Below, in pieces: positions 2,669 to 57,107 of a stretch of DNA of 64,000 bases. The notes under the pieces were generated by a model. That model was not told the origin of the DNA and did not search any database. It saw only the letters and a list, made by a program, of their open reading frames with translations. Where the stretch lies: assembly GCA_002600635.1 (NCBI GenBank), contig CP021371.1, positions 3,041,001 to 3,105,000 on the forward strand, given 5' to 3'. Position 1 is the first letter of the stretch; each line of letters opens with the position of its first letter. Origin of the DNA: Rhizobium sp. ACO-34A (GTDB lineage Bacteria > Pseudomonadota > Alphaproteobacteria > Rhizobiales > Rhizobiaceae). The translations under genes and the position numbers were made by a program.

Positions 2669-4183
2669 TCAGAAGAAACCAAGAGCCTTCGGGCTGTAGC
2701 TGACGAGCATGTTCTTGGTCTGCTGATAGTGATCGAGCATCATCTTGTGGGTCTCGCGGCCGATACCGGACTGCTTGTAGCCGCCAAAGGCCGCATGGGC
2801 CGGATAGGCGTGGTAGCAATTGGTCCAGACACGGCCGGCCTGGATGTTGCGACCGAAGTGGTAGCAGGTGTTGGCATTGCGGCTCCACACGCCGGCACCG
2901 AGGCCGTACAGCGTGTCGTTGGCGATTTCGAGCGCTTCCGCCTCATCCTTGAAGGTGGTGACGGAAACAACCGGTCCGAAGATCTCCTCCTGGAAGATCC
3001 GCATCTTGTTGTTGCCTTCGAACACCGTCGGCTTGACGTAGTAGCCACCGGCCAGATCGCCGGAAAGCTCGTTGCGGTAACCACCGGTCAGCACCTTCGC
3101 GCCTTCCTGCTTGCCGATATCGATGTAGGACAGGATCTTCTGCAGCTGTTCGCTGGAAGCCTGTGCGCCGATCATCGTCGACATGTCCAGCGGGTCGCCC
3201 TGCCGAACGGCTTCGACGCGCTTGACGGCCTTTTCCATGAAGCGGTCGTAGATCTTCTCATGCACCAGCGCACGGCTCGGGCATGTGCACACCTCGCCCT
3301 GATTGAGGGCGAACATGGCGAAGCCTTCCAGCGCCTTGTCGAGGAAGTCATCGTCTTCCGCCATGACGTCGGCAAAGAAGATGTTCGGCGACTTGCCACC
3401 GAGTTCCAGCGTGACCGGGATCAGGTTCTGGCTGGCATACTGCATGATCAGGCGACCGGTCGAGGTCTCGCCGGTGAACGCGATCTTGGCGATGCGCGGG
3501 CTGGTCGCAAGCGGCTTGCCGGCTTCGAGACCGAAACCGTTGACGATGTTGAGAACGCCCGGCGGCAGAAGGTCGCCGATCAGGTCCGCCAGGACGAGGA
3601 TCGAGGCAGGCGTCTGTTCAGCCGGTTTCAGCACCACGCAATTGCCGGCGGCGAGCGCCGGAGCGACCTTCCAGGCAGCCATCAGGATCGGGAAGTTCCA
3701 CGGGATGATCTGGCCGACGACGCCGAGCGGCTCATGGAAGTGATAGGCGACGGTGTCATTGTCGATTTCGCCGATCGAACCTTCCTGAGAACGAACGCAT
3801 GCGGCGAAGTAGCGGAAATGGTCGATGGCGAGCGGAATATCGGCCGCCATGGTTTCGCGAAGCGGCTTGCCGTTGTCCCAGGTTTCGGCGCGCGCCAGAA
3901 GCTCGAGATTGGCTTCCATGCGGTCGGCGATCCGGTTGAGAATGTTGGACCGTTCGGCAACCGACGTGCGGCCCCACTTGTCCTTGGCGGCATGCGCGGC
4001 GTCGAGCGCGAGGTTGATGTCGTGTTCGTCGGAGCGGGCGACTTCGCAGAGCTTGCCGCCGGTCACCGGCGTCGTGTTGTCGAAGTAGCGGCCGTTTACC
4101 GGCTCGCGCCATTCACCACCGATGAAGTTGCCGTATTTCAGCTTGAACGGCGTTTCCGCAATGGTCTGAACCTGAATGTTCAT
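2669..4183 (-). CDS. Aldehyde dehydrogenase (NAD), ExaC/AldB type
   Basis: Oxidises short-chain aldehydes such as acetaldehyde to the acid with NAD(P)+ in the cytosol. From ATG 4183 (AGGGAGGAAGACAG upstream) the protein is 504 residues, typical for the family. Visible motifs are the Rossmann/glycine motif FTGETSTG (about 236), the general base Glu260 in LELGGKSP and the catalytic Cys299 in [10 protein letters not shown], whose double-Cys form is characteristic of ExaC/AldB enzymes. The longer ORF start at 4294 lies in the regulatory region and was rejected. It is downstream of a GAF-Fis regulator and upstream of the DUF779 gene; all three share a strand and probably form one regulatory unit for alcohol, acetoin or aldehyde metabolism. 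Confidence 0.95.
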
Positions 4184-4202
4184 CTGTCTTCCTCCCTGGT
4201 CA

Positions 4203-4219
4203 GGGTCCCTCCTGGACCC
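4203..4219 (-). other. Hairpin in the ALDH leader
   Basis: GGGTCC (4203–4208) and GGACCC (4214–4219) form a six-base-pair stem with a five-base loop, just upstream of the ALDH ribosome binding site. It is the only clear secondary structure between the operator-like palindrome and the start codon. A regulatory role is not shown. Confidence 0.35.
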
Positions 4220-4286
4220 GATGGGAGGATGATCGCGATGAAATCGGACTTGCGAAAGTGGCGTCAACCGATACCGCAGCGCACAG

Positions 4287-4304
4287 TGTTTCACTTATGA
4301 TACA
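4287..4304. promoter_or_regulatory. Candidate operator TGTTTCA-N4-TGATACA
   Basis: An 18-base inverted repeat with seven-base arms and one mismatch, located 104 bases upstream of the ALDH start and 37 bases past the stop of the GAF-Fis regulator gene. It is a plausible binding site for the adjacent regulator, whose Fis-type helix-turn-helix would bind a TGT-N-ACA-type palindrome. I looked for a -24/-12 sigma-54 promoter (TGGCAC-N5-TTGC) between this site and the gene and found none. Confidence 0.5.
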
Positions 4305-4340
4305 GCGCTCGCTAACATGCGTACCTCCGTATCCGCCGCC

Positions 4341-5300
4341 TCACTGCAGCGAAAAGCGCTTCATCTTCCGGTGAAGCGTCGCACGGCTGATACCCAACAC
4401 CTGCGCCGCCTGCGAAACATTGCCGTTGGTGCGTGAAAGCGCGCGTCTCAGCGCCGCCCGCTCGGCATCGTCGAGGTCAGAATTCGCCTCGCCCCTGTCC
4501 TCGCTCAGCGCATCCGCCGCCGGAATGCCCTGCGCGATCATCTGGTCGTCCAGCCTGAGAGCCACGCGCGCGGCCTTGGTCGCGCCGAGAATCAGATCGT
4601 CGTGATCGACGGCAAGCAGAGCCGACGCGGCAGCGCTAACTGTCGGCACCATGACGATACGGGCAGACGGGAATGCCATGCGAAAAAGGCTCATCTCCAC
4701 GCGCGCGGCAACGTCGCGAACTGCCTGCGAGAGGATTGCGAGCGTCATGTCCGTCACATCCTGACGGCAGGTGGAGATATCGAGAGCCGCCGTCACCCGA
4801 CCGAGATGATCGCGGATCGGCGCGGTAGCGCAGCTCAATGTGGTATTGGAACTCAGGAAATGCTGGTCACCTTGAATGACAACCGCCCGTTCATCGGCAA
4901 GAGCTGTGCCGATACCGTTGGTACCGACGCTCGCCTCACTCCAGACATTCTGTTGCCAGAGGCCGAGGCCGTGGAAATCGGCGTCATCACCAGCCGCACC
5001 GCGCCGGTCAAGCACGATGCCGTTACGATCGGACAAGACGAGGCAGCACCCGGAGCGACCTACGGTCTGGTAGAGACGGTCGAACTCGTCCGCGCAGACA
5101 TGAATGAGATGTTCCATCTTCTCGCGAGCCTCGCGAAAGACGATATCATCGACCTGCACCGGCTTGCGCCCCTCTTCGGGCTGCAACTGGTGAAGGTTCA
5201 GGCAGCGTCGCCACGACGCTGCTATCGGCGAACTCGCAGCCGCCGAATTCTGTGAGGCGGTCGCATAGACCAAGTCCGAATGACTCGTTTCCCGGCGCAT
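4341..5300 (-). CDS. GAF–Fis transcriptional regulator without AAA+ domain (AcoR-like)
   Basis: A protein of 319 residues from ATG 5300 (GGGAGGAGCAC upstream). Residues about 60–220 form a GAF-type sensor with the AcoR-like VWSEASVGTNGIGTALA and HFLSSNTTLSCATAPIRD motifs. The C-terminus (about 275–318) is a Fis-type helix-turn-helix (NVSQAAQVLGISRATLHRKM). AcoR-family activators of acetoin and alcohol genes normally carry a sigma-54-interacting AAA+ ATPase between these domains; it is absent here (no GAFTGA, no Walker motifs), so this protein probably acts on sigma-70 promoters or as a repressor. The likely target is the aldehyde dehydrogenase gene immediately downstream. Confidence 0.85.
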   Translation of the reverse strand: MRRETSHSDLVYATASQNSAAASSPIAASWRRCLNLHQLQPEEGRKPVQVDDIVFREAREKMEHLIHVCADEFDRLYQTVGRSGCCLVLSDRNGIVLDRRGAAGDDADFHGLGLWQQNVWSEASVGTNGIGTALADERAVVIQGDQHFLSSNTTLSCATAPIRDHLGRVTAALDISTCRQDVTDMTLAILSQAVRDVAARVEMSLFRMAFPSARIVMVPTVSAAASALLAVDHDDLILGATKAARVALRLDDQMIAQGIPAADALSEDRGEANSDLDDAERAALRRALSRTNGNVSQAAQVLGISRATLHRKMKRFSLQ

Positions 5301-5446
5301 GTGCTCCTCCCAAAGCGTTAGTCCATTGTGCCAGCGCTAGAGGAATCTTTCAATCAGCCAGTCATGAAACAAGGCATGACAAGATTTCGCACCCCTGACT
5401 GTCGCATCAATGCATCATAACAGGGGTGGATTGCGCCAAACTGTCA

Positions 5447-7474
5447 TCAGGCAGCGAGATTGACCAGAGCTTCGATAGCCGCTTTTGGTTCAGGCCTGCC
5501 ATAATAATACCCCTGAACCTGATTGCAGCCTTCCGCCTTCAGAAAGCTGAGGTGCTCCTCGCTCTCCACACCCTCTGCAAGGACAGGAATGTCGAGGCTC
5601 TCGGCAAGAATGAGGGTCGAGCGGACGATTGCCGCGGACTGGCGGTTGGTGGCCACGCGATCGATGAAGGCCTTGTCGATCTTGATCTTGTCGAAGGGAA
5701 AGAGCTGCAGGGTCGAGAGCGAAGAATATCCCGTGCCGTAGTCGTCCATGGCAATCTTCACGCCGAGCGCCTTGAGCTGACGGATGATGTTCAGCGCGTG
5801 CTTCTGGTCGGCAATGATGCCGGACTCGGTAATTTCGAGCTCGAGCCTGTCAGGCGACAGGCCGGTCTCGTCCAGCACCTTGAGAACCCGTGCCGGCAGG
5901 TTGCTGCTGGCAAGCTGCTGCGGCGCCACGTTGACGGCAATGGAGAACGGCTTGCGCCAGCGCACTGCCTCCCGGCATGCCTCGCGCATCGCCCATTCGC
6001 CAAGCTCGACGATGAAGCCGGTCTTCTCCGCGATCGGGATGAATTCGACCGGCGAGATCTGTCCGCGAACAGGATGGTTCCAGCGCATGAGCGCCTCGAA
6101 CCCGATGATATCGCCTGTGCGGGTGTCGTTCTGCTGCTGATAGAAGAGTTCGAACTCGCCCCGCTGCAGACCGACGCGCATGTCCATGGCCAGCGCGTTG
6201 CGCTCGCGGGCCGCCTGGTCCATCGAGGTATCGTAGAAGCAGACATTGTTGGAACCGGCCGCTTTTGCACGATACATCGCGACATCCGCCTGGGCCATGA
6301 CGTCGTCGACCGTCTCCCCGTTGTCGGGGAAGATCGAGATGCCGATGCTGGTCCCGATGCCGAAGATCTGTTCCTTCCACTCGATCGGCTGGTTGATCTC
6401 GCGAATGATCCGCTGCGCCAGCTGGGATGCGTCGTTGCGATTGAAATGACGGGCGGAAACCACGACGAACTCGTCGCCGCCCATACGGGCCAGGAATTCC
6501 TGATCCTTGAGCATGGACGACATCCGCGCGGAAATAACCCGCAGGACGTGATCGCCAGCCGCATGCCCATGCACGTCATTGATTTCCTTGAACCGGTCGA
6601 GATCGAACGACAGGACCGCGATGCGGGAGGAACGCTCGTCGGGGCGTTCGATCAGGCGGCCGATATGCTCCATGAAGGCGGCACGATTGGGCAGGCCGGT
6701 CAGGGCGTCATGCAGGGAAAGGTGCCGGTAGCGCTCGACGGTCGCAAGCGTTGCCTGCTGGTCGATGGCATAGGTGGCAGCTCCCAGCGACAGGATGACG
6801 AGTGTGATCGCGACCACGACGACCGACAGCATGCCTTCGTGAAGCACACCCGTCGGCGCACCTGCATCGGCATTGGGAACCACGGTCAGACCGGTCATGC
6901 CGGTGAAATGCGTGGCGAGGATCGTCAGGATCAGAAAAGCTCCGCCGCCATAGGTGCAGAAGCGGCTGAACGGCCTTGCCACACGATTGGTGGTCATCGC
7001 GCCAAAAACGGCGGCAAGCACGAGGGACGCGTAGACATAGCGCGAATCCCAGACCAGATCCGCTTGCAGCTGATAGGCCGACATGCCGAGATAATGCATC
7101 AGCGCAATACCGAGCCCGACAACCATACCACCCGCCTCGACCAGCAGGCTGCGCTGCGAAAGGGAGGCGATGGCAAAGCCGGCACCCGTGGTTGCGATGG
7201 CGCTTGTCAGCGAAAGGAGCGTGATAACCGGCTCATAACCGCTGACGACACCCGTCTGATATCCCATCATCGCGACGAAATGGGTCGTCCAGATCGATGA
7301 ACCGCCGATGATCGCACTCAACGCCAGCCAGCTCAGCCGAGCAACACCACGATTGTTGCGCGCCCTGGCAAAGAGCCTTACGGTCAGAAGCGAGCCAAGT
7401 ATGCAGACGAACAGCGCCGTCACGAGCGACACGAAATCGTGCCCGATGGCGATGCAGGTGATGACATTGAGCAT
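5447..7474 (-). CDS. MHYT–GGDEF–EAL membrane protein, cyclic-di-GMP turnover
   Basis: A protein of 675 residues. The first 235 form a seven-helix MHYT sensor with three repeats of the motif (HFVAMMGYQ at 65, MHYLGMSAYQ at 126, HFTGMTGL at 189), a domain proposed to bind copper and sense O2, CO or NO. A GGDEF domain (intact GGDEF at 332–336) follows, then an EAL domain (EAL at 460–462) with the ITES, DDYGTGYSS, KIDKAF and AEGVE motifs needed for phosphodiesterase activity. The RxxD inhibitory site before GGDEF is missing. Both activities look possible; EAL catalysis is the safer prediction. It stands alone on the minus strand, divergent from rplY. Confidence 0.92.
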   Translation of the reverse strand: MLNVITCIAIGHDFVSLVTALFVCILGSLLTVRLFARARNNRGVARLSWLALSAIIGGSSIWTTHFVAMMGYQTGVVSGYEPVITLLSLTSAIATTGAGFAIASLSQRSLLVEAGGMVVGLGIALMHYLGMSAYQLQADLVWDSRYVYASLVLAAVFGAMTTNRVARPFSRFCTYGGGAFLILTILATHFTGMTGLTVVPNADAGAPTGVLHEGMLSVVVVAITLVILSLGAATYAIDQQATLATVERYRHLSLHDALTGLPNRAAFMEHIGRLIERPDERSSRIAVLSFDLDRFKEINDVHGHAAGDHVLRVISARMSSMLKDQEFLARMGGDEFVVVSARHFNRNDASQLAQRIIREINQPIEWKEQIFGIGTSIGISIFPDNGETVDDVMAQADVAMYRAKAAGSNNVCFYDTSMDQAARERNALAMDMRVGLQRGEFELFYQQQNDTRTGDIIGFEALMRWNHPVRGQISPVEFIPIAEKTGFIVELGEWAMREACREAVRWRKPFSIAVNVAPQQLASSNLPARVLKVLDETGLSPDRLELEITESGIIADQKHALNIIRQLKALGVKIAMDDYGTGYSSLSTLQLFPFDKIKIDKAFIDRVATNRQSAAIVRSTLILAESLDIPVLAEGVESEEHLSFLKAEGCNQVQGYYYGRPEPKAAIEALVNLAA

Positions 7475-52926: not shown

Positions 52927-54078
52927 TCAACCCCGCCAGGCCTTGGCGAGATTGAGCAGGCCAAGCATCAATCCACCCGCGACAAGCCCCCAGAAAGCCC
53001 CGGAAATCCCGCCGAAAGACACGCCGGACGCGGTGATCAGGAAGGTGACGGCCGCCGCCTCGCGCGTTTCCGCGTCCTTGAAAGCGGCAAGTGCGGAACC
53101 CGAAAACGCGCCGATCAGCGCAAGCCCTGCCACCGCCTGAATGAGAACCGGCGGTGCCAGAGAAACGAAAGCCGTCACGGCACCCGCCAGCAGGCCGAGA
53201 ATCACATAGCCGACGCCGCCGATGATCGCCGCCCAGTAGCGCTTCTTCGGATCCGGATGAGCATCCTCGCCAGCGCACATGGCCGCCGTGATGGCCGCCA
53301 GATTGACGGCATGCCCGCCGAACGGAGCCGACAGCAGCGAGAAAAACCCCGTCGTCGCAAACAGAGGGCCGGGATTGGGATCGTAGTGATTGACCTTCAG
53401 CACCGCGATCCCCGGAATGTTCTGCGACGCCATCGTGACGATGAAGAGCGGCAGCGCAATCGAGATCAGCGACGGCAGGGTGAAGGCAGGCGTCACCAGT
53501 TCCATCGGCGGCGTAAGCGATGCGGCCCAGTTCGCCATGGCTCCCTCTGGCAGCTCCACCCCGAACATCATCACCAGAACGAAGGCGAGAAGTGCGGCAG
53601 GAACGGCATAGAGCCGCTTGAAGGCCGCAACCACCGCCCAGGCGGCAAGGATCGGCAGTCCAAGCATCGGATCGAAGGCGATGGCCTTGAAGGGCGCGAA
53701 ACAGAGACCGAGAATGACGCCCGACAGCATGGCATTGGCAAGCGGTGCCGGAATGGCGGCAACGGCCTTGCCAAGCGGCTTGAACAGGCCGGCGATGATG
53801 ATCAGCACGGCACAGACCAGAAACGCGCCGACAGCAACAGGAAATCCCCCCTCTGGAACGCCCGCAGTCGCCAGCAGCGCCGCACCGGGCGTCGACCACG
53901 CGATGGAAACCGGAAGCTTCGTCCATGCACTGAGCACGATGGCGCAAAGCCCCATGGATACGGAAAGCGCCATCAGACCCGAGGCGGCCTCGAAATCGGT
54001 CGCCCCGACACCTTTCAGCCCCTGCAGCACGACGGCGAAAGAACTGGCGAAGCCGACGAAAGCGGTCAGGCAGCCCAT
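52927..54078 (-). CDS. benE: BenE-family benzoate:H+ symporter, N-terminus probably frameshifted
   Basis: A protein of 383 residues as read from ATG 54078, with about twelve hydrophobic helices. The BenE signatures FVGFASSFAVVLQGL, NIPGIAVLK and FGGHAVNLAAITAA are clear. It imports benzoate with protons. No ribosome binding site precedes 54078. In the adjacent frame an ATG at 54110 starts MLKDLSP, the usual BenE N-terminus; one extra G in the five-G tract at 54090–54094 would join it to the main frame as MLKDLSPQSFFMGCL. The reading frame is thus likely one base short. Confidence 0.88.
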   Translation of the reverse strand: MGCLTAFVGFASSFAVVLQGLKGVGATDFEAASGLMALSVSMGLCAIVLSAWTKLPVSIAWSTPGAALLATAGVPEGGFPVAVGAFLVCAVLIIIAGLFKPLGKAVAAIPAPLANAMLSGVILGLCFAPFKAIAFDPMLGLPILAAWAVVAAFKRLYAVPAALLAFVLVMMFGVELPEGAMANWAASLTPPMELVTPAFTLPSLISIALPLFIVTMASQNIPGIAVLKVNHYDPNPGPLFATTGFFSLLSAPFGGHAVNLAAITAAMCAGEDAHPDPKKRYWAAIIGGVGYVILGLLAGAVTAFVSLAPPVLIQAVAGLALIGAFSGSALAAFKDAETREAAAVTFLITASGVSFGGISGAFWGLVAGGLMLGLLNLAKAWRG

Positions 54079-54290
54079 GAAGAAACTCTGGGGGAAAGGT
54101 CTTTCAGCATGACGGACTCGGGGGTGCGGGATTTGGAAAGCTATCGAACAGCAAAATTCGCTCAGGCATGCAAGGCTGGATCAGCGAAAAGAGTACGGCC
54201 GGAAGGGGAAAACGGGCATCGGAACGCCGTACTGTGCTCCGAAACACCGATCTACGTCCGAACCCGACGTACACGCCCTCGAATGACGTG

Positions 54291-54319
54291 TTGTATTCGC
54301 CGGAAGCGTCATGTATAGG
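54291..54319 (+). promoter_or_regulatory. Predicted promoter of the polyamine operon
   Basis: TTGTAT (54291–54296), 17 bases, TATAGG (54314–54319). It gives a leader of about 400 bases before the decarboxylase. The remaining part of the gap to benE (54111–54290) shows nothing I can name. Confidence 0.5.
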
Positions 54320-54365
54320 CCGGCCAACAAGTTGCAGGTTTCATCTGCTGGTTGGAGAGGACGCC

Positions 54366-54452
54366 ATGTCTAGCGACGCCCTCTTCCAATCGGGGATGGG
54401 CCCAGTCGGACTGGATGCCCCCGAACGGAAGAATTCTTTACGACGCCCGTAA
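54366..54452 (+). CDS. Leader small ORF 1 of the polyamine operon
   Basis: ATG 54366, preceded by GGAGAGG at five bases, opens a 28-codon ORF (MSSDALFQSGMGPVGLDAPE, then RKNSLRRP) ending at TAA 54452. Within it the RNA can fold: CCAGT/ACTGG with outer GGGG/CCCC arms. The second leader ORF starts 14 bases after the stop, with AAAGGAG overlapping the TAA. Confidence 0.5.
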   Translation: MSSDALFQSGMGPVGLDAPERKNSLRRP

Positions 54453-54466
54453 AAGGAGCGTTCCCG

Positions 54467-54598
54467 GTGGTATTTCGTCTCGTTTTCACGAGAACGAAGC
54501 GCATCGCGATAGCGCTTGTGCGCACGGCCCTGCGCCAGCGCGGCGGCCTGCAGAAGCGGCTCGTGCCGCGCCGGATGGCCTTTACCATCCCCTCCTGA
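54467..54598 (+). CDS. Leader small ORF 2 of the polyamine operon, arginine-rich
   Basis: GTG 54467, with AAAAGGAG eight bases upstream, opens a 43-codon ORF ending at TGA 54598. It has nine Arg and two Lys (for example FTRTKRIAIALVRTALRQRG and KRLVPRR). It lies 128 bases upstream of the decarboxylase ATG. Arginine-rich leader ORFs that sense ornithine control polyamine genes elsewhere (speFL in enterobacteria), so nascent-peptide control of this operon is plausible. The frame overlaps no other gene. Confidence 0.55.
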   Translation: MVFRLVFTRTKRIAIALVRTALRQRGGLQKRLVPRRMAFTIPS

Positions 54599-54726
54599 AC
54601 CACCCGCACCAGGTTCCAATCGACATCGGTTCATGCGCGCCGCGCCATGCCCCGATGCCTGTTTCACGTCGCCGTCACATGCCGATGGCAAATCAGCACC
54701 ACCTTGAAAACGAGCAGGTTCCCAAG

Positions 54727-55827
54727 ATGCAGCTACAGACCCCCTATTACCTGATCGACAAGTCGAAGCTCCTGCAGAACATGGAGAAGATCGCGAAACT
54801 GCGCGAACTCTCCGGCGCCAAGGCACTGCTGGCGCTGAAATGCTTCGCCACATGGTCGGTCTTCGACCTGATGCGCGAATACATGGATGGCACGACGTCT
54901 TCCTCGCTGAACGAAGTCCGCCTCGGCCACGAGCGCTTCGGCAAGGAAACGCACGCCTATTCGGTCGCCTATGCCGATTACGAAATCGACGAGGTCGTGT
55001 CCCACGCCGACAAGATCATCTTCAACACCATCGGCCAGTTGCAGCGTTTCGAGAAGCAGTCGGCGGGGATCATCCGCGGGCTGCGCCTCAATCCCGGCGT
55101 CTCGTCGTCGAGCTTCGATCTCGCGGACCCTGCCCGCCCCTTCTCCCGCCTCGGCGAATGGGACATGGCCAAGGTCGAGCCTGTCATGGGCATGATCTCC
55201 GGCTTCATGATCCACAACAACTGCGAGAACGGCGATTTCGACCTGTTCGACCGGATGCTGACCGCGATCGAGGAAAAGTTCGGCCCGTTGCTGAAGAAGG
55301 CCGGCTGGGTCAGCCTCGGTGGCGGCATCCATTTCACCGGCGAAAACTATCCTCTGGAAAAATTCGCCGAGCGCCTCAAGCGCTTCTCCGGCGAATTCGG
55401 CGTGCAAGTCTATCTTGAACCCGGCGAGGCCTCGATCACAAGGTCAACGACGCTGGAAGTGACCGTTCTCGACAAGCTTTACAACGGCAAGGACCTTGTC
55501 GTGGTGGATAGTTCCATCGAAGCGCACATGCTGGATCTGCTGATCTATCGTGAAAACGCGAAGGTTCATCCCAACCAGGGCCCACATCGTTACATGGTCT
55601 GCGGCAAGTCCTGCCTGGCCGGCGACATCTTCGGCGAGTTCGATTTCCCGAACGAACTGAACGTCGGCGACAGGATCTCGATCCAGGACACCGCCGGATA
55701 CACGATGGTCAAGAAAAACTGGTTTAACGGCGTGAAAATGCCGGCAATCGCCATCCGCGAACTGGATGGCAGCATCAGAACGGTCCGCGAGTTTTCCTAC
55801 GCGGACTACGAACAAAGCCTCTCGTAA
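54727..55827 (+). CDS. nspC: Carboxy(nor)spermidine decarboxylase
   Basis: A PLP enzyme of the alanine racemase-like fold III that decarboxylates carboxyspermidine or carboxynorspermidine to (nor)spermidine. From ATG 54727 the protein is 366 residues. The PLP Lys is in KALLALKCF (about residue 40), followed by TTSSSLNEVRLG; the Cys-containing CGKSCLAGDIFG and the terminal VKKNWFNGVKMPAIAI are family marks. The ORF is open upstream to 54352 but homology begins at MQLQTPYYLIDK. It is followed 38 bases later by its partner dehydrogenase. Confidence 0.95.
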   Translation: MQLQTPYYLIDKSKLLQNMEKIAKLRELSGAKALLALKCFATWSVFDLMREYMDGTTSSSLNEVRLGHERFGKETHAYSVAYADYEIDEVVSHADKIIFNTIGQLQRFEKQSAGIIRGLRLNPGVSSSSFDLADPARPFSRLGEWDMAKVEPVMGMISGFMIHNNCENGDFDLFDRMLTAIEEKFGPLLKKAGWVSLGGGIHFTGENYPLEKFAERLKRFSGEFGVQVYLEPGEASITRSTTLEVTVLDKLYNGKDLVVVDSSIEAHMLDLLIYRENAKVHPNQGPHRYMVCGKSCLAGDIFGEFDFPNELNVGDRISIQDTAGYTMVKKNWFNGVKMPAIAIRELDGSIRTVREFSYADYEQSLS

Positions 55828-55865: not shown

Positions 55866-57107
55866 ATGAAAAAGAACGTGCTTATCATCGGCGCCGGTGG
55901 CGTCGCCCAGGTCGTGGCGCATAAATGCGCCCAGAACAACGATGTGCTCGGTGATATCAACATCGCCTCGCGCACCAAGGCCAAGTGCGACAGCATCATC
56001 GCATCGGTCCATGAAAAGAAGGCAATGAAACAGCCCGGCGTGCTCGAAGGCCACGCGCTGGACGCCCTCGACATCGAGGCGACCAAGGCCCTCATCAAGT
56101 CGACCAATTCCCAGATCGTCATCAACGTCGGCACCGCATTCCTCAACATGTCGGTGCTGCGCGCCTGCATGGATACCGGCGTCGCCTATATCGACACCGC
56201 GATCCACGAAGAGCCGAACAAGATCTGCGAGACCCCGCCGTGGTACGGCAACTACGAGTGGAAGCGTGGCCCCGAATGCGAGGAAAAGGGCATCACCGCC
56301 ATCCTCGGCGCCGGCTTCGATCCGGGCGTCGTCAACGCCTATGCAAAGCTCGCCAAGGACGAGTATCTCGACAAGGTCACCGACGTCGACATCGTCGACA
56401 TCAACGCCGGCAGCCATGGCAAGTACTTCGCCACCAATTTCGACCCGGAAATCAACTTCCGCGAATTCACCGGCGTCGTCTATTCCTGGCAGAACGGCGA
56501 GTGGCAGACCAACAAGATGTTCGAAATCGGCAAGGACTACGACCTGCCGGTCGTCGGCACCCGCCGCGCCTATCTCTGCGGCCATGACGAAGTGCATTCG
56601 CTGGCGAAGAACATGGATGGCGCCGACGTGCGCTTCTGGATGGGTTTCGGCGATCACTACATCAACGTCTTCACCGTGCTGAAGTCGATCGGCCTTCTCT
56701 CCGAACAGCCGGTCAAGCTGGCAAACGGTGACGAAGTCGTGCCGCTCAAGGTGGTCAAGGCCTGCCTGCCCGATCCGGCATCGCTCGCTCCCGATTACGA
56801 AGGCAAGACCTGCATCGGCGACTACGTGAAGGGCCTGAAGGACGGCAAGGAAAAAACCGTCTTCATCTACAACGTGGCCGATCACAAGGAAGCCTTCAAC
56901 GAAGTCGGCTCCCAGGGCATTTCCTACACCGCCGGCGTTCCGCCGGTTGCAGCGGCCATGCTGGTGGCCACCGGTGAGTGGGACGCGAAGAAGATGGTCA
57001 ACGTCGAGGAACTACCGCCGAAGCCGTTCATCAACCTCCTGAACCGCATCGGCCTGCCGACCCGCATCCAGGACGAAAACGGCGACCGTCCGGTCGAATT
57101 CGCCTGA
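55866..57107 (+). CDS. Carboxy(nor)spermidine dehydrogenase/synthase (saccharopine dehydrogenase family)
   Basis: Condenses aspartate beta-semialdehyde with putrescine or diaminopropane using NADPH. From ATG 55866 (AAGGAG upstream) it is 413 residues. The dinucleotide motif VLIIGAGGVAQVVAHK starts the protein. GAGFDPGVVNAYA and FDPEINFREFTGVVYSW are characteristic of the CASDH branch of saccharopine dehydrogenase-like enzymes. With nspC it forms the alternative spermidine route used in place of SpeE in many alphaproteobacteria. Confidence 0.94.
   Translation: MKKNVLIIGAGGVAQVVAHKCAQNNDVLGDINIASRTKAKCDSIIASVHEKKAMKQPGVLEGHALDALDIEATKALIKSTNSQIVINVGTAFLNMSVLRACMDTGVAYIDTAIHEEPNKICETPPWYGNYEWKRGPECEEKGITAILGAGFDPGVVNAYAKLAKDEYLDKVTDVDIVDINAGSHGKYFATNFDPEINFREFTGVVYSWQNGEWQTNKMFEIGKDYDLPVVGTRRAYLCGHDEVHSLAKNMDGADVRFWMGFGDHYINVFTVLKSIGLLSEQPVKLANGDEVVPLKVVKACLPDPASLAPDYEGKTCIGDYVKGLKDGKEKTVFIYNVADHKEAFNEVGSQGISYTAGVPPVAAAMLVATGEWDAKKMVNVEELPPKPFINLLNRIGLPTRIQDENGDRPVEFA

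Follow-up and report, generated by a model that had tools for sequence, protein, structure and literature searches.

The window, i.e., the whole stretch of 64,000 nucleotides that was analyzed (C1:3041001-3105000), carries an operon in which an nspC-type carboxy(nor)spermidine decarboxylase gene (CASDC) is followed by a carboxy(nor)spermidine dehydrogenase/synthase gene (CASDH), with a leader in front of them at positions 54320-54726 (Table 1). The nspC gene shares 99% identity with its counterparts in Rhizobium daejeonense L61 and Ciceribacter sichuanensis S101, on which ground we take the genome to be of a Ciceribacter type (Rhizobiaceae). The nspC frame is open for 125 codons 5' of the ATG (54352-54726, giving a TTG-started ORF of 491 aa), and long open frames upstream of nspC are listed for many relatives in the genus as well. 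The leader contains the elements that the initial annotation had described in it, namely a promoter-like TTGTAT-17-TATAGG pair, a first ORF (ORF1) of 28 codons preceded by GGAGAGG, a second ORF (ORF2) of 43 codons with a GTG start, nine Arg and two Lys, and the letters of the CCAGT/ACTGG and CTCGT/ACGAG stems.

A loose form of the promoter-like pair, TTG-N(16-19)-YANR, recurs at a near-constant distance 5' of the conserved element described below in 32 of the 32 nspC leaders examined; a stricter sigma-70 scan returned no promoter in the window leader, and no intrinsic terminator was found there. A tRNA in the leader was considered and rejected. Small ORFs per se are unremarkable in this region, as 16 ORFs of at least 20 aa overlap positions 54000-54800, and the folding energy of the leader is ordinary (z -1.04, reached by 32 of 200 shuffles). 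The feature that stands above chance is that about 54342-54432 has been conserved among relatives, which is invisible from a single sequence. Of the initial reading of this leader, a conserved and probably regulatory leader with a translated ORF in front of the nspC-CASDH operon was retained, but not its tandem peptides, its Arg-rich sensor or its kinship with speF.

Table 1. Features of the nspC leader and the downstream genes in the window
Feature	Positions	Strand	Basis
Promoter-like pair TTGTAT (54291-54296), 17 nt, TATAGG (54314-54319)	54291-54319	+	Sequence; loose pattern recurs in relatives
Conserved leader element, homologous to the 5' UTR and first ~22 codons of alphaproteobacterial speD	54342-54432	+	Sequence/RNA model matches
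Likely hairpin S1, 5' strand, containing the Shine-Dalgarno sequence GGAGAGG (54354-54360)	54342-54360	+	Pair counts; start codon 54366 in loop
Leader cistron, in the window split into ORF1 (54366-54452) and ORF2 (54467-54598)	54366-54598	+	One open frame in 30/32 related leaders examined
Likely hairpin S1, 3' strand, codons for ALFQSGM	54380-54398	+	Alignment and pair counts
Competing hairpin S2 (predicted), 5' strand: UCUUCC 54382-54387 and CGGG 54391-54394	54382-54394	+	Pair counts
Run of five C, one below most relatives; point of the frame break, likewise in L253	54418-54422	+	Comparison with relatives
Hairpin S2 (predicted), 3' strand: CCCG 54420-54423 and GGAAGA 54427-54432	54420-54432	+	Pair counts
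Weakly constrained Arg-rich tail of the leader cistron; RGNSAKAL-like motif in 19/32 leaders, absent from the window	54433-54598	+	Comparison of leaders
nspC-type carboxy(nor)spermidine decarboxylase (CASDC)	54727-55827	+	TIGR01047, 395.4 bits, just below cut-off 409.05
Carboxy(nor)spermidine dehydrogenase/synthase (CASDH)	55866-57107	+	NF043000, 444.2 bits, below cut-off 800; Pfam saccharopine dehydrogenase domains above cut-off

By comparison with relatives, ORF1 and ORF2 read as two halves of one reading frame, since the frame 3' of the C run at 54418-54422 is that of ORF2. The open frames, of 50-95 codons, include one of 77 codons in L001, which runs from the ATG corresponding to the start of ORF1 to the stop corresponding to that of ORF2. 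In this count 30 leaders were used, seven loci with a peptide identical to that of a used locus were omitted, and the two broken cases are the window and L253 (G908), which belongs to another genus; in both the run has five C, against six in the other listed sequences of that type. In L253 the frame downstream of the run is intact through RGNSAKAL. The alignment with the leaders of relatives that the initial annotation had proposed thus upheld an open reading frame, but as a single one of which the two ORFs are halves.

A second short C run lies 330 nt upstream, at 54089 (54085-54090), just before the start of a minus-strand ORF (52927-54078) that we take to be a BenE-type permease. At this run L001 and L002 read in frame into the ORF and the window does not; one base shorter than in L001, the run leaves the permease-like ORF out of frame with its likely N-terminus. 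Because of this second shortfall, an undercalled homopolymer in the assembly is a serious possibility for the split leader; as L253 shows the same shortfall, the frameshift may also be a real mutation. Among flank-matched runs of six G or C compared between the window and G007, four of five agree, the fifth being the leader run. The shortened run leaves the RNA element of the window intact, and the case advises caution, as small ORFs read from one genome can be the halves of a single frame.

The conserved leader element is homologous to the 5' region of alphaproteobacterial speD, the gene for S-adenosylmethionine decarboxylase, with a sequence match that spans the Shine-Dalgarno region and the N-terminal codons. 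R1, a model built from the nspC leader (its 5' UTR and N-terminal codons), was searched in genomes of the order and the class, and matched once per genome in 60 of 397 order genomes and in 16 of 385 class genomes, the window being included in both counts (59 and 15 outside it, respectively). All 74 non-window R1 matches coincide with the beginning of speD or a speD-like gene; 63 of them were read directly (eight of these lacking the motif ESHIS), and in the remaining 11 SpeD and SpeE follow downstream. Typical N-termini of the speD proteins carrying the element are MSSDALFQLGMDLDHGSSTAQTEE. In the family, a second model (R2) matched in 37 of 394 genomes, and at the 29 loci read among the 36 non-window matches the gene after the element was nspC in 17, speD(-speE) in 11 and neither on the fetched piece in one. 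A phylum-wide draw of 299 genomes gave matches in the window, in eight further alphaproteobacterial genomes and, weakly, in one outside the class (E 6.6e-4).

Among the nspC loci, the element is present in 19 of 79 taken from the best 80 of 588 relatives (L054, a locus starting inside the gene, was left out of the leader counts), with scores of 109-139 bits versus at most 13.7 for the rest; within the window's own genus it is present in four and absent in 26 of the 30 loci among the relatives listed. In two sets of speD genes found instead by their protein, 20 of 30 and 7 of 20 loci had a recognisable element, the 50 loci being a non-random set of the 30 best and 20 hand-picked ones (five for an aligned N-terminus), at least ten of them in genomes already positive with R1. 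The AdoMet_dc domain starts at residue 54 of the SpeD of L138, and solved SpeD structures align from residue 49-51, so the element lies outside the enzyme domain. The leader ORF of the window has no Pfam match in a family scan of the leader alignment A1 (19 sequences), and no speD enzyme domain follows it. Two other affiliations of the leader peptide were rejected: matches to known small-protein families were at chance level (E 0.045-0.075, in one of 19 members each), and a pattern search for a phage origin had no match in viral contigs.

SpeD was not detected (E <= 0.01) in any of the 21 genomes with the nspC version, including that of the window (completeness is not given for 17 of them), and the same search found it in all ten control genomes, which carry the speD version (weakly in two). 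One locus, L208 (G274; 3212-6588), is intermediate, as it combines the element, a decayed SpeD, a CASDH-type gene and an nspC-type gene; its SpeD of 170 aa has lost the ESHIS motif and scores 51.3 bits against the SAM_DCase_Bsu cut-off of 75.65. A further seven speD-like genes without ESHIS, behind an almost unchanged leader, form part of family f2 (L167, L169, L175, L176, L177, L181 and L192). As the downstream sequence retrieved for nine f2 loci contained neither speE, nspC nor CASDH, these speD-like loci are not intermediates towards nspC. Since other alphaproteobacteria have this element at the start of the unrelated speD, the exchange of the enzyme appears to have spared the control element in front of it. 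A casdc-casdh pair is recorded for S. meliloti (PMC13293326).

Two hairpins can be drawn in the element. They are mutually exclusive, sharing a common middle strand, and S1 would mask the Shine-Dalgarno sequence. Pairing was counted on an alignment of 58 sequences (A4), derived from 90 loci by dropping six without a recognised 3' end, merging identical ones to 75, and omitting sequences with long inserts, some near-duplicates and the window. On A4, 97.8% of the cells of S1 and 99.3% of those of S2 are paired, versus 44-64% and 33-65% for the respective slid controls. With so little sequence variation, A4 offers scant covariation: the count of doubly changed pairs in S1 is reached in 28 of 500 shuffles and its count of pair types in 151 of 500, and for S2 both counts are reached in 465 of 500.

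A more divergent alignment, A6, comprises 68 matches collected at a stricter E-value than A5 (three antisense matches). On A6, S2, to which this alignment was fitted, is 96.1% paired (slid controls <= 70.9%), with five pairs and 19 cells changed on both sides (slid controls <= 5 cells). The corresponding figures for S1 are 93.6% paired (slid controls <= 65.6%) and six pairs and 16 cells changed on both sides, of which slid controls reach five pairs and 14 cells; some pairs of S1 are broken in up to 13 sequences. None of 500 shuffles of A6 reaches the doubly changed cell counts of S1 or S2. Of the two exclusive structures that a riboswitch would be expected to have, S2 is clearly above the controls on A6, and S1 is above most of them, though only narrowly above the slid controls for doubly changed cells. 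The S2 pair 84-120 of A4 occurs as U-A in 46 sequences, C-G in ten and U-G in two, and its C-G form is nonsynonymous on both sides (TTG>TCG, Leu9 to Ser; CAA>CGA, Gln of AQTEE to Arg); the two amino acid changes are explained by the C-G pair. The nspC lineage also has a compensatory change of its own. Taken together, the pair counts support S2 well as a predicted hairpin and make S1 likely. Predicted energies favor S1 over S2 in 12 of 12 nspC-type and 50 of 57 speD-type sequences, and thus S2 would need help to form.

The codons of the element are also unusually uniform. In 41 SpeD genes with less than 85% identity, the commonest codon has a frequency of 0.954 over seven element codons versus 0.608 over 47 codons of the catalytic domain, a contrast that is partly due to ascertainment because these loci were found by the RNA model, which favors conserved sequence, and that leaves out two codons of the element (columns 40 and 42 of the alignment; Q 0.90, E 0.97) falling between the two compared groups. 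Gly GGG and Gln CAA of the element are each used in 41 of 41 genes. Among the SpeD loci found by protein, nearly all divergent sequences printed have the GGGGA core, with adjacent residues changing. The synonymous sites of the element are nearly frozen. Past codon ~24, constraint on the leader cistron is weak; this tail contains the Arg residues emphasized in the initial annotation and shows 104/85/168 differences at codon positions 1/2/3 over 15 pairs. A tail hairpin, CAGCGC-N4-GCGCTG, codes for the RGNSAKAL-like motif (e.g., L015:2822-2845) and is found, with at most one departure, in 20 of 32 leaders, including L230, in which the peptide motif has been lost.

Several known systems resemble this arrangement in part. 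In enterobacteria, speFL is an Arg-rich leader peptide encoded before a polyamine gene; the present leader likewise places an ORF before a polyamine gene, but its conservation is in the start of the ORF and at the RNA level, not in an Arg-rich peptide. Translational riboswitches mask the Shine-Dalgarno sequence by alternative hairpins, and our putative switch is similar in its two exclusive predicted hairpins, one of them covering the Shine-Dalgarno sequence; it differs in that it is partly coding, is found with two non-homologous enzymes and in one of these contexts heads a separate leader cistron. The speF RNA (RF00518) is an alphaproteobacterial element before a polyamine decarboxylase gene, as is ours, but here nspC-type and CASDH genes, not speF or an ornithine decarboxylase gene, are located downstream. 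The kinship with speF suggested in the initial annotation was not borne out, as the RF00518 model had no match at E <= 1 in 53800-55200; the model does work on this genome, where it matches at G000:C1:3563485-3563637, ~0.47 Mb from the nspC operon of the window. Homology with speF loci was likewise rejected, short pieces giving only chance-like matches with three mismatches. Beyond speF, no Rfam family was matched in the window leader (53800-55200, E <= 1), in eight nspC loci or in 11 speD loci. The scan of nspC and speD loci gave weak, scattered hits, the best being SorX in L202 (E 0.0085), below the gathering score and outside the element.

A validated class of spermidine riboswitches derives from SAM-I and senses the end product, turning the gene off (PMC10853860). 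It resembles the present element as a cis RNA before spermidine-pathway genes including speD and speE, and in contrast our element has no SAM family match, is far smaller and extends into the coding sequence; that report makes no mention of alphaproteobacteria, nspC, carboxynorspermidine or Rhizobi. Closest in style among known elements is the odc1 (uORF-25-1) motif, likewise an alphaproteobacterial RNA before a polyamine gene, with a stem sequestering the ribosome-binding site, a short upstream ORF and candidate status as a translational switch (PMC8632094). That motif is described there with UUG starts, a fixed 11-residue uORF, a pseudoknot and an ornithine decarboxylase gene downstream, whereas the present leader has an ATG start, 50-95 codons of variable length, and speD or nspC downstream. 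No description of the element was found in the open-licence PMC literature, which leaves out most subscription papers.

From the computed features of the element, namely the homology of its two contexts, the lack of a detected SpeD in genomes with the nspC version, the one intermediate locus, the frozen synonymous sites and the compensatory changes, we infer that it acts as a switch. The reading we consider probable is a cis RNA that controls translation for spermidine synthesis and was retained across the exchange of non-homologous enzymes. The element would consist of the RNA across the speD start, i.e., the Shine-Dalgarno region and the first ~22 codons, with two exclusive folds. In S1, the Shine-Dalgarno sequence would be paired with the ALFQLGM codons and the AUG held in the loop, turning initiation off; in S2, the ALFQLGM codons would pair with codons ~20-23 and free the Shine-Dalgarno sequence, turning initiation on. 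In speD mRNAs, the switch would thus set the translation of S-adenosylmethionine decarboxylase itself. Some of the Rhizobiaceae, and a few others, would have lost speD and would make spermidine via carboxyspermidine (CASDC/CASDH); there the element would survive at the head of a leader cistron of its own, 50-95 codons long and located before nspC, with the start of this cistron being the one controlled.

How leader translation might be relayed to nspC, whose start lies 98-247 nt downstream of the leader stop, can only be proposed: alternative folding around the tail hairpin, or Rho-dependent termination on untranslated RNA, may be involved. The C-over-G excess 3' of the leader stop is 0.37 versus 0.26, which is not exceptional beside nspC itself. 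The SpeD and carboxyspermidine pathways both take putrescine and give spermidine, and spermidine or putrescine would therefore be the likeliest signal, likelier than SAM, arginine or ornithine; the sensing of arginine or ornithine, as first proposed for this leader, found no support. More tentatively, and with rather less confidence than in the switch as such, the element may represent a new alphaproteobacterial class of polyamine-sensing translational riboswitches, with an aptamer or switching strands that lie in part within the initial codons of speD; once the carboxyspermidine pathway had displaced speD, it would have outlived the gene as a leader cistron that controls the non-homologous replacement enzyme.

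Other explanations have to be weighed against such a switch. An RNA site of another kind that affects initiation via S1, be it a thermometer, the target of a small RNA or a binding site for a protein, is somewhat unlikely. As a long hairpin that covers the Shine-Dalgarno sequence and has the AUG in its loop, S1 would suit such a site, and metabolite binding is something that we only infer; still, the element is tied to spermidine-synthesis genes at 74 of 74 R1 loci and 28 of 29 R2 loci, and S2 with its conserved internal loops exceeds the needs of a melting hairpin. It is unlikely that the nascent peptide exerts the control, with MSxDALFQLGMG...AQTEE (or the tail RGNSAKAL/TIP-stop) stalling the ribosome in answer to a polyamine, the classical mode of attenuation by leader peptides. 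Conservation does extend to the peptide (M1, L6, Q8, G10, G12 and E22 are invariant in the 19 sequences of A1), the frame is open in 30 of 30 unbroken leaders, the differences in the tail lean to codon position 3, and the RGNSAKAL-like motif recurs among leaders. Against this, the synonymous sites of the N-terminal codons are nearly fixed, a pair in the RNA is maintained through the changes Leu9>Ser and Gln>Arg, and L188/L190 read LFPLG with an RNA pair changed from U-A to C-G. In addition, the window and L253 break the frame right after the conserved segment, RGNSAKAL overlaps a hairpin that L230 keeps without the motif, and the speD peptide belongs to the precursor of the enzyme.

That the nspC leader is a functionless remnant after the displacement of speD appears quite improbable. 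Decayed speD genes with a well-preserved leader do exist (L208 and the seven f2 genes), and conservation is poor in the tail of the leader cistron, but the element is nearly unchanged over many genera while the tail diverges, the promoter-like pair at a fixed distance and the open frame have been kept, and the nspC lineage has made its own compensatory change. As for the two tandem leader peptides of the initial annotation, the second Arg-rich and sensing arginine, ornithine or a polyamine, this proposal can hardly be maintained: both window ORFs have Shine-Dalgarno-like sequences and the second could be reached by re-initiation, yet 30 of 32 related leaders have one cistron in a single frame, the Arg residues fall in the unconserved tail while the conserved part is the speD start, and the leader has no speF RNA.

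If the translational switch that we favor is real, regulation would have been more durable than the enzyme it regulates, as a control element of an mRNA would have been passed on to a non-homologous pathway of spermidine synthesis. The sharing of the element would also narrow the candidate signal, because the two pathways share few compounds, with putrescine going in and spermidine coming out. Finally, it would explain the N-terminal extension of alphaproteobacterial SpeD before the enzyme domain, in which the RNA, not the peptide, would have been selected.
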